Shown here one piece after another: positions 29,431 to 32,706 of a stretch of DNA of 37,496 nucleotides. The stretch lies in assembly GCA_029548485.1 (NCBI GenBank), contig JAKPNH010000009.1, forward strand, positions 1 to 37,496, in the 5' to 3' direction. Numbering within the stretch: the stretch's first letter is position 1; each line of letters begins with the position of its first letter. Position numbers and translations under genes: made by a program. The notes below the pieces were generated by a model. That model saw only the letters and a program-made list of their open reading frames with translations. It was not told the origin of the DNA and did no database searches. This DNA comes from a bacterium (GTDB lineage Bacteria; Patescibacteriota; Minisyncoccia; UBA6257; Colwellbacteraceae).

Positions 29431-29712
29431 ATGGCTCATACAAAGGCCCTCGGATCCACGAAGTTAGGACGGGATTCCGAGGCTAAAAGATTGGGAATAA
29501 AGAAGAACCACGGACAACCGGTCAAGCCCGGCCAGATTTTGCTCCGCCAAAGGGGAACCCGTTATATTCCGGGAGTGAACGTCTCGAGAGCCAAAGACGA
29601 CACCCTCTATTCCAAAATCGAGGGCGTGGTCCAGTATTCCAAAGGCAAAAAAACCCGTTTCAATTCCAAAGTAAGATACGCTACCTGGGTGAAGGTTCTG
29701 CCGAAATCCTAA
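29431..29712 (+). CDS. rpmA: 50S ribosomal protein bL27
   Basis: 93 residues, a large-subunit protein near the peptidyl transferase centre. The N-terminus 'MAHTKALGSTKLGRDSEAKRLG' (in pieces) and 'ILLRQRGTRYIPGVNV', 'DDTLYSKIEG' are diagnostic. No N-terminal processing extension is present. rplU (L21), its usual partner, is not adjacent. The 3' end overlaps the 3' end of rplI by 32 nt on the opposite strand, and the transcription terminator lies within the rplI coding sequence. Confidence 0.96.
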   Translation: MAHTKALGSTKLGRDSEAKRLGIKKNHGQPVKPGQILLRQRGTRYIPGVNVSRAKDDTLYSKIEGVVQYSKGKKTRFNSKVRYATWVKVLPKS

Positions 29713-30115
29713 CCTTTCCGGAAACGCCTTTATGCAAACTTATCTCGACCTCGAAAAGGCCGAGATTTTTTATCGGCTTCGGAAGCTTCACCTTGACGCC
29801 GACGAGTCCCCTTCTTCGGAGCTCCTGCTCGATGTCTTCGGGTTTGATCGAGGTGTAGATTTCCCCTTTGTCTCCGGTTTTCAGGTAGAATTTGATCGGT
29901 TCGCCGTCGGTCACGGATTTCAATCTGGCGACCAGTTCGTTTTCTTCGGTTGTGATCGCCTGCCTTTCTTTTTCTATTTTCCTAAGCTCCTCGGGGGTGG
30001 CCAAAACCGCCATTTTCTTCGGGAAAAGCATGTTCCGGGCATAGCCGTCGGAAACGTTCTTCACTTCGTGCCTGCGGCCGACATTCTTGATGTCTTCTAG
30101 AAGAATGACTTTCAT
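29681..30115 (-). CDS. rplI: 50S ribosomal protein bL9
   Basis: 144 residues, near full length. The N-terminal domain is 'MKVILLEDIKNVGRRHEVKNVSDGYARNMLFPKKMAV' (in pieces), followed by the connecting helix and a C-terminal domain with 'GEIYTSIKPEDIEQEL', 'KLPKPIKNLG' and 'ISLHKGVSGKVRI'. A TTG two codons upstream can be read as a start, but the ATG at 30115 gives the canonical N-terminus. It follows the S41 protease gene by 9 nt in the thpR-S41-rplI operon and is convergent with rpmA. Its presence argues against CPR groups that lack L9. Confidence 0.95.
   Translation of the reverse strand: MKVILLEDIKNVGRRHEVKNVSDGYARNMLFPKKMAVLATPEELRKIEKERQAITTEENELVARLKSVTDGEPIKFYLKTGDKGEIYTSIKPEDIEQELRRRGLVGVKVKLPKPIKNLGLFEVEISLHKGVSGKVRISAEPSPR
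29742..29771 (+). terminator. Terminator of rpmA, inside the rplI coding sequence
   Basis: Stem ATCTCGACC/GGCCGAGAT (29742-29750 with 29758-29766, one mismatch), loop TCGAAAA, then a T run on the plus strand. On the minus strand the same bases encode the rplI residues 'NLGLFEVEI'. Confidence 0.7.
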
Positions 30116-30124
30116 TTTCAAAAT

Positions 30125-31369
30125 TTAATTTACCGGCGCCGCGATCTCTGATTTTAGAACCTCGATCGCTTTATCGAGCTGCGGATCGCGGTCGTTTTCC
30201 AAGTCTTCGTCGGTGATTTCGACTTCGTAGTCCGGTTCGATGCCGTTGCCGTTCAAGATCAATCCATTGGGTGTCACCCAGCTGGCGATGGTGATTTTTA
30301 GAACCGATCCGTCTTTCAAGTCTTCGATCGTCTGCACCGATCCCTTGCCGAAGGTCTTTTCGCCGACGATCTTGACGCTGCGGTTGTCGCGGAGCGCGCC
30401 CGCTAAGATCTCCGAGGCCGAAGCCGAGCCGCTGTTCACGAGAACGACCGTCGGCATGTCTTGAAGGGCGGCGTTCCCCGAAGCCCGCCATACGTCCATG
30501 TCGCCGTTCGCGAATTTCTCGGAGACGACGGTTTGTCCCGGCTTCAAGAACCAACCGGCGATGTTCACGGCCACGTCAAGGTATCCGCCCGGATTATTCC
30601 TCAAGTCGAGAACGATTCCCTGGGCATCCTGGGGCACGGTTTCGAGGATGGCCCGGTAAAAAGCGATGGGCGCGTTCTGATTGAATCCGTAAAGCTCGAC
30701 GTGGACGATTTTGTCGTCGAGCCAGGACCATTCGAGCGTCGGCACCTCGATTATTTCCCTCGTGATCTCGAAATCCTTGGGTGCGGTGAACCCTTCGCGC
30801 ATTATGGAAAGAATTATTTTCGTGCCCGGATCTCCCCGGATAACCTTCACCGCCTCCATGACGTCCACGTCGGTCAATTCCGTGTCACCAGCCTTCAAGA
30901 CGATGTCTCCAGGCTTGATTCCGGCCCGTTCGGCCGGAGTCCCTTTGAGCGGCGCCACGACCACGACGTAATCTCCCTGATTTTCCAGTTCGGCTCCGAT
31001 GCCGCCGAAATTGCCGTTGACGTCCTCGGTGAATTTCTTGGCGTCTTCCGGATTCATGAAAACGGTGTAAGGATCGCCGAGGCTTTCGAGCATGCCGCTG
31101 ATCGCCCCGTAAACCAGATCCTGGTCCTTGATGTCTTTGGCTTTGACGTATTTGGATTTTATCTTGTCCCAGGCCTGCCAGAAAACCCCGAAATCGGCCG
31201 AAACCTCCTCGTTCGGATTGATGTCGGCCACGCCTTTGATTTCGATGATTTTCGTCTCCTCGAGGCCCTTGCGATAGCCGACGTAAAAAGAGCCGGCGGT
31301 CGAAACCGCAAGCGAAAAAGCGATAACGGCGACGATCAATATTTTCTTTTTCGGCAGCTGATTCATCAT
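30125..31369 (-). CDS. S41 family C-terminal processing peptidase
   Basis: 414 residues. One N-terminal TM helix (about 9-31) places the enzyme outside the membrane. A PDZ domain ('GNFGGIGAELE' to 'RAGIKPGDIVLKAGDTEL', about 118-195) precedes the serine protease core with 'GIVLDLRNNPGGYL', the nucleophile segment 'NSGSASASEI' (312-321) and general-base Lys342 in 'TFGKGSVQ'. It trims or degrades exported proteins, like CtpA/Prc. Two adjacent ATGs can start it. It lies 10 nt after the RNA ligase gene and 9 nt before rplI. Confidence 0.95.
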   Translation of the reverse strand: MMNQLPKKKILIVAVIAFSLAVSTAGSFYVGYRKGLEETKIIEIKGVADINPNEEVSADFGVFWQAWDKIKSKYVKAKDIKDQDLVYGAISGMLESLGDPYTVFMNPEDAKKFTEDVNGNFGGIGAELENQGDYVVVVAPLKGTPAERAGIKPGDIVLKAGDTELTDVDVMEAVKVIRGDPGTKIILSIMREGFTAPKDFEITREIIEVPTLEWSWLDDKIVHVELYGFNQNAPIAFYRAILETVPQDAQGIVLDLRNNPGGYLDVAVNIAGWFLKPGQTVVSEKFANGDMDVWRASGNAALQDMPTVVLVNSGSASASEILAGALRDNRSVKIVGEKTFGKGSVQTIEDLKDGSVLKITIASWVTPNGLILNGNGIEPDYEVEITDEDLENDRDPQLDKAIEVLKSEIAAPVN

Positions 31370-31379
31370 CAGGATTCTA

Positions 31380-31943
31380 CTATTTTACTCCTCCAAAGTC
31401 TATTTCTGAAATCAAGCCGTAAACCGATCCTTTGCTAGACAATATCGACTCCATGAGATCCAGGGATTTGGCCCGGAAAACAAGGTCGATCTTGTTTTCG
31501 AGGGCCGGCAGCCGATCGAAATTCACGGGTTGAAATCTCGCCAAGGTGATATGCGGGGAAAATCCTTTATTTTCTAAATTTAGGCCGCGCTTTTCTAGAT
31601 TTTGGTCGAAAGACTTTTTGACGTTCTCGAGGTCTTTTGATTCGACTTCAAGCCAGATCATTCTCGCTTCTTTTCCGTGAATCGGCCCGAAGATCATTTT
31701 CCGGAGTTTTATTTCCGGTTCGGCAAAAGCAGACGCGGTTTCTTCGATCGCCTCCTTGATAAGCCCGATCTCCGCCTCGCTCCTGTTCCCGAAAAATCCC
31801 ATGGTGATATGCCAGTTTTCCCGGTCCAAAATCCTCGGGGTGATAATCCCCCTCCATGAAGGTTCGGCTTCGAACAAAACCGCTTCGATTTCCGCTCTTA
31901 TTTCCGAAGGAAGATTGATAGCCGCGAAGACTCTTTTATCCAT
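31380..31943 (-). CDS. thpR: RNA 2',3'-cyclic phosphodiesterase (2H, LigT/ThpR)
   Basis: 187 residues with the two-histidine signature: 'WHITMGF' in the N-terminal half and 'PHITLARF' in the C-terminal half. 'RVFAAINLP' at the N-terminus is typical of ThpR. It opens 2',3'-cyclic phosphates on RNA ends. A longer in-frame extension upstream runs through the divergent gene; the start at 31943 ('MDKRVF') is preferred as it matches the family and lies 7 nt after a -10 box. It heads the thpR-S41-rplI operon. Confidence 0.9.
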   Translation of the reverse strand: MDKRVFAAINLPSEIRAEIEAVLFEAEPSWRGIITPRILDRENWHITMGFFGNRSEAEIGLIKEAIEETASAFAEPEIKLRKMIFGPIHGKEARMIWLEVESKDLENVKKSFDQNLEKRGLNLENKGFSPHITLARFQPVNFDRLPALENKIDLVFRAKSLDLMESILSSKGSVYGLISEIDFGGVK

Positions 31944-31950
31944 CAGGAGT

Positions 31951-31960
31951 ATTATATAAT
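31951..31960. promoter_or_regulatory. Palindromic bidirectional -10 element
   Basis: ATTATATAAT is its own reverse complement. The plus-strand TATAAT (31955-31960) ends 7 nt before the ATG at 31968; the minus-strand TATAAT (31956-31951) ends 7 nt before the thpR ATG at 31943. One 10-bp element thus appears to drive two divergent leaderless genes. Confidence 0.65.
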
Positions 31961-31967
31961 GGAATCG

Positions 31968-32276
31968 ATGAAACCTGTCCGGAAAGCGGAAAAAAAGCGG
32001 GATTTCGCGGATTATTTCCGAAAAATGAAGGAAAGGGCCAAGGAATCCCGGGTTTACACCCGGCATCAGCTCACCGGGCTCGAGATTGCCGAGCTTCTTG
32101 ACGATAGAGCCCACAAATCCTTATATATCAAATTGGCGAAGGATTTTAACGAAGACCGGCTTTTGAGCCTCGCCAAATCGATCGCCGAGAAAAAGGACAT
32201 CAAGAACAAAGGGGCCTATTTCATGGCCATCTGGCAAAAAGAAAAAGACGATGAAGATAGTCACCGTAAAAGATAA
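31968..32276 (+). CDS. Unknown small basic protein upstream of def
   Basis: 102 residues, not recognised. The N-terminal third is highly basic ('KPVRKAEKKRDFADYFRKMKERAKES'), then 'YTRHQLTGLEIAELLDD' and 'KSLYIKLAKDFNEDRLLSLAKSIAEK' form predicted helices, and the end is again charged. This could bind RNA or DNA, or be a CPR-specific family next to def. An ATG three codons earlier (31959) overlaps the -10 element itself, so the ATG at 31968 is the better start. It overlaps def by 26 nt. Confidence 0.6.
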   Translation: MKPVRKAEKKRDFADYFRKMKERAKESRVYTRHQLTGLEIAELLDDRAHKSLYIKLAKDFNEDRLLSLAKSIAEKKDIKNKGAYFMAIWQKEKDDEDSHRKR

Positions 32277-32706
32277 GAAATCCGAAGCCAAGATCCTTCA
32301 CGGAAGGGTGCCGGATTTCGATTTTAAAAAAGCCGACAAGAAAAAGATCTCCGAGGTCGCCAAAAGGATGCGGAAGCTGATGCAGGAGAACAAAGGCGTC
32401 GGGCTTTCGGCAAACCAGATAGGATTGGACTGGCGGATGTTCGTCGCCCAGAACGAAGGCAAATTTTACGTCATTTTCAATCCGGAGATCACGAGCGCCT
32501 CGAAGCAGATGGACGAATGCGAAGAAGGATGTTTGAGCGTTCCCGAAATGGAAAAGAACATCAAGCGGCCTTACCAGGTGACGCTCGTCGGACAAGACAA
32601 AAACGGCAAAAAGCTAAAGATCAAAGCCTGGGGTTTGCTCGCGCGGATCTTCCAGCACGAAACCGATCATCTAAACGGCACATTGATCGCCGATCACAAA
32701 GATTAA
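32251..32706 (+). CDS. def: Peptide deformylase
   Basis: 151 residues, a metallo-enzyme that removes the formyl group from the N-terminal Met of nascent proteins. The three motifs are intact: 'GVGLSANQIG', 'EEGCLSVPE' with the metal-binding Cys, and 'QHETDHLNG' with the two His ligands and the catalytic Glu. Short at the C-terminus but normal for type 1-like forms. It begins inside the preceding unknown gene, and fmt starts at the base after its stop codon, the standard def-fmt pair. Confidence 0.96.
   Translation: MKIVTVKDKKSEAKILHGRVPDFDFKKADKKKISEVAKRMRKLMQENKGVGLSANQIGLDWRMFVAQNEGKFYVIFNPEITSASKQMDECEEGCLSVPEMEKNIKRPYQVTLVGQDKNGKKLKIKAWGLLARIFQHETDHLNGTLIADHKD

Follow-up and report, generated by a model that had tools for sequence, protein, structure and literature searches.

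Bidirectional promoters with symmetric -10 elements were reportedly described by Warman et al. in 2021. They are an established feature of E. coli and of other prokaryotes, and their two start sites most often lie 18 bp apart, distances of 10 and 23 bp being common as well (PMC12825309, PMC10268837). Leaderless "TA-led" bacterial genes form another described class, defined by a TANNNT -10 box that lies roughly 12 nt ahead of the start codon and by the lack of a Shine-Dalgarno (SD) motif (Zheng et al. 2011, PMC3160421). Overlapping divergent promoters are also found in plasmid and restriction-modification systems, where they are reported to be compact and to need dedicated regulators (PMC4207663, PMC4824078); PMC4824078 mentions leaderless transcripts too. 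Neither bidirectional promoters nor leaderless genes are new in themselves; the compact, conserved combination of the two proposed here is a new variation on them.

A palindrome of two TATAAT boxes between divergent genes

The site lies in the window (the whole stretch of 37,496 nt that was analysed), which belongs to a genome of 541 kb and 50% GC that we denote G000. The relevant features are as follows:

31951-31960, both strands: palindrome ATTATATAAT, two TATAAT boxes with the central AT in common, outer span L=10
31955-31960, plus strand: putative -10 box TATAAT of the plus-strand operon, 7 nt before ATG 31968
31951-31956, minus strand: putative -10 box TATAAT of the minus-strand operon, 7 nt before ATG 31943
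31968-32276, plus strand: P1, a small protein of unknown family that opens the plus operon; it has 102 aa from ATG 31968, and ATG 31959 is an alternative start
32251-32706, plus strand: def, peptide deformylase, overlapping the 3' end of P1
32707-33564, plus strand: fmt, methionyl-tRNA formyltransferase, directly 3' of def
31380-31943, minus strand: thpR, RNA 2',3'-cyclic phosphodiesterase (TIGR02258), first gene of the minus operon
30125-31369, minus strand: S41 C-terminal processing peptidase, minus operon
29681-30121, minus strand: rplI, ribosomal protein L9, minus operon

The three minus-strand genes are closely spaced, and the three plus-strand genes overlap or abut. When the letters around 31941-31970 (CCATCAGGAGTATTATATAATGGAATCGATGAAACC) are read directly, ATTATATAAT equals its own reverse complement, so that TATAAT appears on both strands. 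On the plus strand the box (31955-31960) is followed by the seven nucleotides GGAATCG and then ATG 31968; on the minus strand the box (31956-31951) is followed by the seven nucleotides ACTCCTG and then ATG 31943. This is exactly the geometry that the initial annotation had claimed, a palindrome reading TATAAT on both strands at 7 nt from each ATG. ATTATATAAT occurs once in the window, where 0.01 copies are expected from dinucleotide shuffling, and twice in the whole genome. Direct reading revealed neither a good -35 hexamer nor a TG extension in either direction. The -35 element is often weak in bacterial promoters, and this site escapes a simple promoter scan, in which a -35 box is mandatory.

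With overlapping symmetric -10 boxes on opposite strands, ATTATATAAT resembles the Warman/Grainger class, in which start sites lie 7-25 bp apart. The spacing predicts a start-site separation of about 23 bp (23-25 bp), calculated with the E. coli distance from -10 box to start, which may not be that of this host; L=10 with a 6-nt discriminator gives 23 bp, a common distance in the class (PMC12825309). Unlike the known bidirectional promoters, ATTATATAAT leads in both directions, from predicted starts, into coding start codons without a leader, and both of its boxes are full consensus. The likeness to TA-led genes is also close: both genes have a TANNNT box whose first T stands 13 nt before the ATG, which we count as agreeing with the approximately 10-12 nt of that class; there is no SD motif before ATG 31943, and the AGGAG ahead of 31959 lacks conservation. 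What sets the locus apart from TA-led genes is that one shared box pair would serve two back-to-back genes, in an order apparently without an anti-SD. The compact divergent layout recalls the plasmid and restriction-modification promoters, the difference being that no dedicated regulator is evident at ATTATATAAT. The site fits the definitions of both a bidirectional promoter and a leaderless start in every feature that can be tested on sequence.

Conservation and recurrence of the arrangement

Loss of the palindrome in close relatives had been named beforehand as an outcome that would refute its being a promoter for two genes. We looked for such loss within the genus and did not see it: ATTATATAAT is letter-identical at the junction in all three genus genomes examined (G000, G021 and G022), with box-to-start spacings of 7/7, 7/7 and 8/8 nt, G022 differing by one base per side. 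At four-fold degenerate sites of the flanking genes, by contrast, G000 and G022 are only about 55% identical (40/73).

P1 gave no Pfam or NCBIfam match in the window, and we found no convincing Pfam family for it. It shares the conserved motifs RAKESRVYSxHQLxGL...HKSLYIKLAK...NKGAYFM with 80 related loci, usually directly upstream of def-fmt, and it adjoins def in nearly all family loci. The relatives bear names such as Ca. Colwellbacteria, Liptonbacteria and Harrisonbacteria, among others (Parcubacteria group of Patescibacteria). Its divergent partner among these GTDB genomes is S41 at 42 of the 80 loci and thpR at 23. At the other thpR/P1 junctions the two boxes are arranged with L=15 (ATNATA-NCA-TACAAT type) in seven cases and L=5 in two, the remainder being wider; beyond the genus, junction boxes stand at L=5, at L=15 or separately. 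The L=15 layout is conserved at loci L095, L120, L124, L129, L133, L135 and L146, where the distance to the start codon is 7 nt for the minus box and 6-7 nt for the plus box. What stays constant across the thpR/P1 junctions is that each start has a -10-like box some 6-7 nt ahead of it. Because many relatives have S41 facing P1 directly, with wide gaps, the palindrome reads as a genus-level trait, and on this comparison it is a genus-level solution at the junction.

The same geometry occurs elsewhere in the genome. The second genomic copy of ATTATATAAT lies between dprA, which starts with GTG (with ATG in G022), and a PilO-like gene, which starts with ATG and whose match is slightly below the Pfam cut-off, with spacings of 8/8 nt in all three genus genomes. 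A third L=10 site, AATATATAAT, lies between tsaD and an SdpI-like gene at 7/6 nt and is identical in all three. No other evident common sequence emerged when the three L=10 sites were compared, and their flanks do not extend the symmetry. Sampling 275 kb of G000 in stretches, we took divergent pairs from motif-plus-open-frame scans. In three of the four distinct close divergent leaderless-like pairs the outer span of the two boxes was exactly 10 bp; no pair came from the reversed motif. The divergent-pair list of an ORF-based gene finder was dropped, its starts being over-extended (thpR was placed at 32114).

In 27 genomes of the family, a one-sided scan found 15 ATTATATAAT sites, ten of which are flanked on both sides by start codons with open frames at 6-8 nt; the two-sided pattern gave 10 sites vs 1 for the reversed control, and 33 vs about 7 for the control across 244 genomes of the order. 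Counted as motif matches only, TATAATA (L=5) gave 42 vs 8 for the control, and ATTATAAT (L=8) gave 7 sites vs 0. The L=5 sites of the family fit the 18-bp class, the most common among bidirectional promoters. Examples of two-sided TATAATA sites, such as CATTAATCTCTATAATAAGGAAGGTG, stand at G000:C10:38878-38901 and G021:C11:96428-96451, and identical or similar sites are present in G002, G003, G004, G008, G009, G010 and G023. In contig G012:C1 (L166-L180), 64 kb of the 300 kb examined reads as N (masked).

Start codons and the 16S rRNA tail

The plus-strand gene has a further in-frame ATG at 31959, which the initial annotation missed; this codon shares letters with the -10 box (TATAATGG), and an AGGAG stands 9 nt before it. 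The default mechanical call is the longer ORF from this codon; the relatives favour 31968. At the corresponding position G021 has GAGAG in place of AGGAG, and G022 has no ATG (TATAATAGAA), the box running on as TATAATAGAATTCGATG, whereas ATG 31968 is retained in all three genus genomes. Since G022 lacks the ATG and G021 lacks the AGGAG, ATG 31968 is likely the start of P1.

In G000 a -10 box 6-8 nt ahead of the start codon is enriched genome-wide. In 24 cases a gene start lies 5-9 nt beyond an exact TATAAT, while no other 5-nt bin holds more than 7 and the reversed motif yields 4. For a -10-like box at 81 P1 loci, the commonest distance is 6-7 nt (39 vs 15 with the reversed motif), and no SD-like motif precedes the chosen start at any of the 81. 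The -10 signal is weak in several members of the order. SD motifs before starts in G000 are no commoner than in controls (7.0% vs 3.9% and 6.1%), likely because the 16S rRNA lacks the anti-SD: its tail after helix 45 reads GAATCAATTAAATTAC, not GGATCACCTCCTTT (G000:C8:5963-6019; L198 2963-3019).

This absence, read from the rRNA gene, supports leaderless translation. It extends to the 144 genomes of the order that contain the search motif, all of whose 16S-like tails lack CCTCC with the sole exception of a second contig in G084; in a sample of 145 genomes from across the phylum, CCTCC is present in most tails. The order appears to have lost the anti-SD. The exceptional tail (G084:C18:13194-13250) carries a canonical anti-SD in a genome otherwise without one, and that contig is probably contamination. 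A comparison of SD use between genomes with and without the anti-SD was weakly informative, some relatives that have it being low in SD motifs as well. A limited literature search found no paper pairing the anti-Shine-Dalgarno with Patescibacteria, although the loss may be reported all the same; the one paper it gave that contains both Shine-Dalgarno and Parcubacteria does not treat anti-SD loss.

Readings of the palindrome and their meaning

We consider it highly probable that ATTATATAAT is a bidirectional sigma-70-type core promoter for two leaderless or nearly leaderless operons. RNA polymerase would bind it in either orientation, by way of one of the two overlapping consensus -10 boxes, and RNA would start about 6-8 nt past each box, either at ATG 31968 or ATG 31943 itself or no more than 1-2 nt away from it. 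The plus mRNA would carry P1-def-fmt and the minus mRNA thpR-S41-rplI. Both would be leaderless or nearly so and translated without SD contact, which the 16S rRNA of this lineage would be unable to make anyway. From the arrangement of boxes and start codons we infer the two-way transcription, the start positions, the leaderless translation and the binding in one orientation at a time.

Might only one direction fire, the second TATAAT being a by-product of an AT-rich spacer and the other operon being read from elsewhere? Many -10-like sites are silent, and two-way firing at ATTATATAAT is deduced from its letters; yet both half-sites are kept in three genomes with both ATGs at 7-8 nt, and three unrelated gene pairs of G000 and 10 sites in the family share this geometry, so that we regard one-way firing as unlikely. 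A different objection concerns the plus gene, which could begin at ATG 31959 under an SD motif (CAGGAG, 31944-31949) and be transcribed from a promoter inside thpR, in which case the overlapping TATAAT would not be its promoter. The AGGAG 9 nt ahead of that codon in the window speaks for this, but the GAGAG of G021, the missing ATG in G022 (TATAATAGAA) and the retention of ATG 31968 speak against it, as do SD motifs that are not enriched before G000 starts and a 16S rRNA without CCTCC; we find it quite unlikely.

A perfect palindrome between divergent genes also sits where operators commonly do, and it could be bound by a dimeric regulator rather than form a promoter core. What is conserved, however, is TATAAT together with its distance to the start codon; the symmetry does not reach the flanks, the three L=10 sites have no other evident sequence in common, and relatives have -10 boxes arranged with L=5 or L=15 in place of the palindrome, all of which makes an operator very improbable. 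Chance is the simplest account, an AT-rich gap happening to read TATAAT twice, and such strings are favoured in the AT-rich gaps of low-GC relatives; the control gave roughly 7 sites across the order. Against this, the genome is 50% GC, 0.01 copies are expected per window, and both genomic copies are conserved and lie symmetrically between divergent start codons, leaving coincidence with hardly any probability.

The two-way core promoter with leaderless starts therefore remains our preferred reading. The compact bidirectional promoter and near-leaderless mRNAs proposed in the initial annotation are well supported by sequence through conservation, recurrence, the -10/start spacing and the missing anti-SD. 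Its further idea, that the promoter ties the two operons together, is a separate matter: at basal activity the two directions did not compete at any of the five bidirectional promoters tested in E. coli (PMC12825309), and regulatory tying is for that reason not to be assumed.

We give even chances to a broader picture, in which the order has dropped SD translation and packs divergent operons round shared symmetric -10 boxes (L=5, 10 or 15), so that here a core of about 10 bp would start two operons without leaders, one of them holding the formyl-methionine pair def-fmt. The site is a case of promoter compression, since all that is needed for starting two operons appears to fit into the 24 bp that separate the two start codons. 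Together with the order-wide loss of the anti-SD, it draws attention to uncultured lineages where leaderless initiation may be a main route, and in which bacterial ribosome initiation without SD contact becomes testable by comparison.
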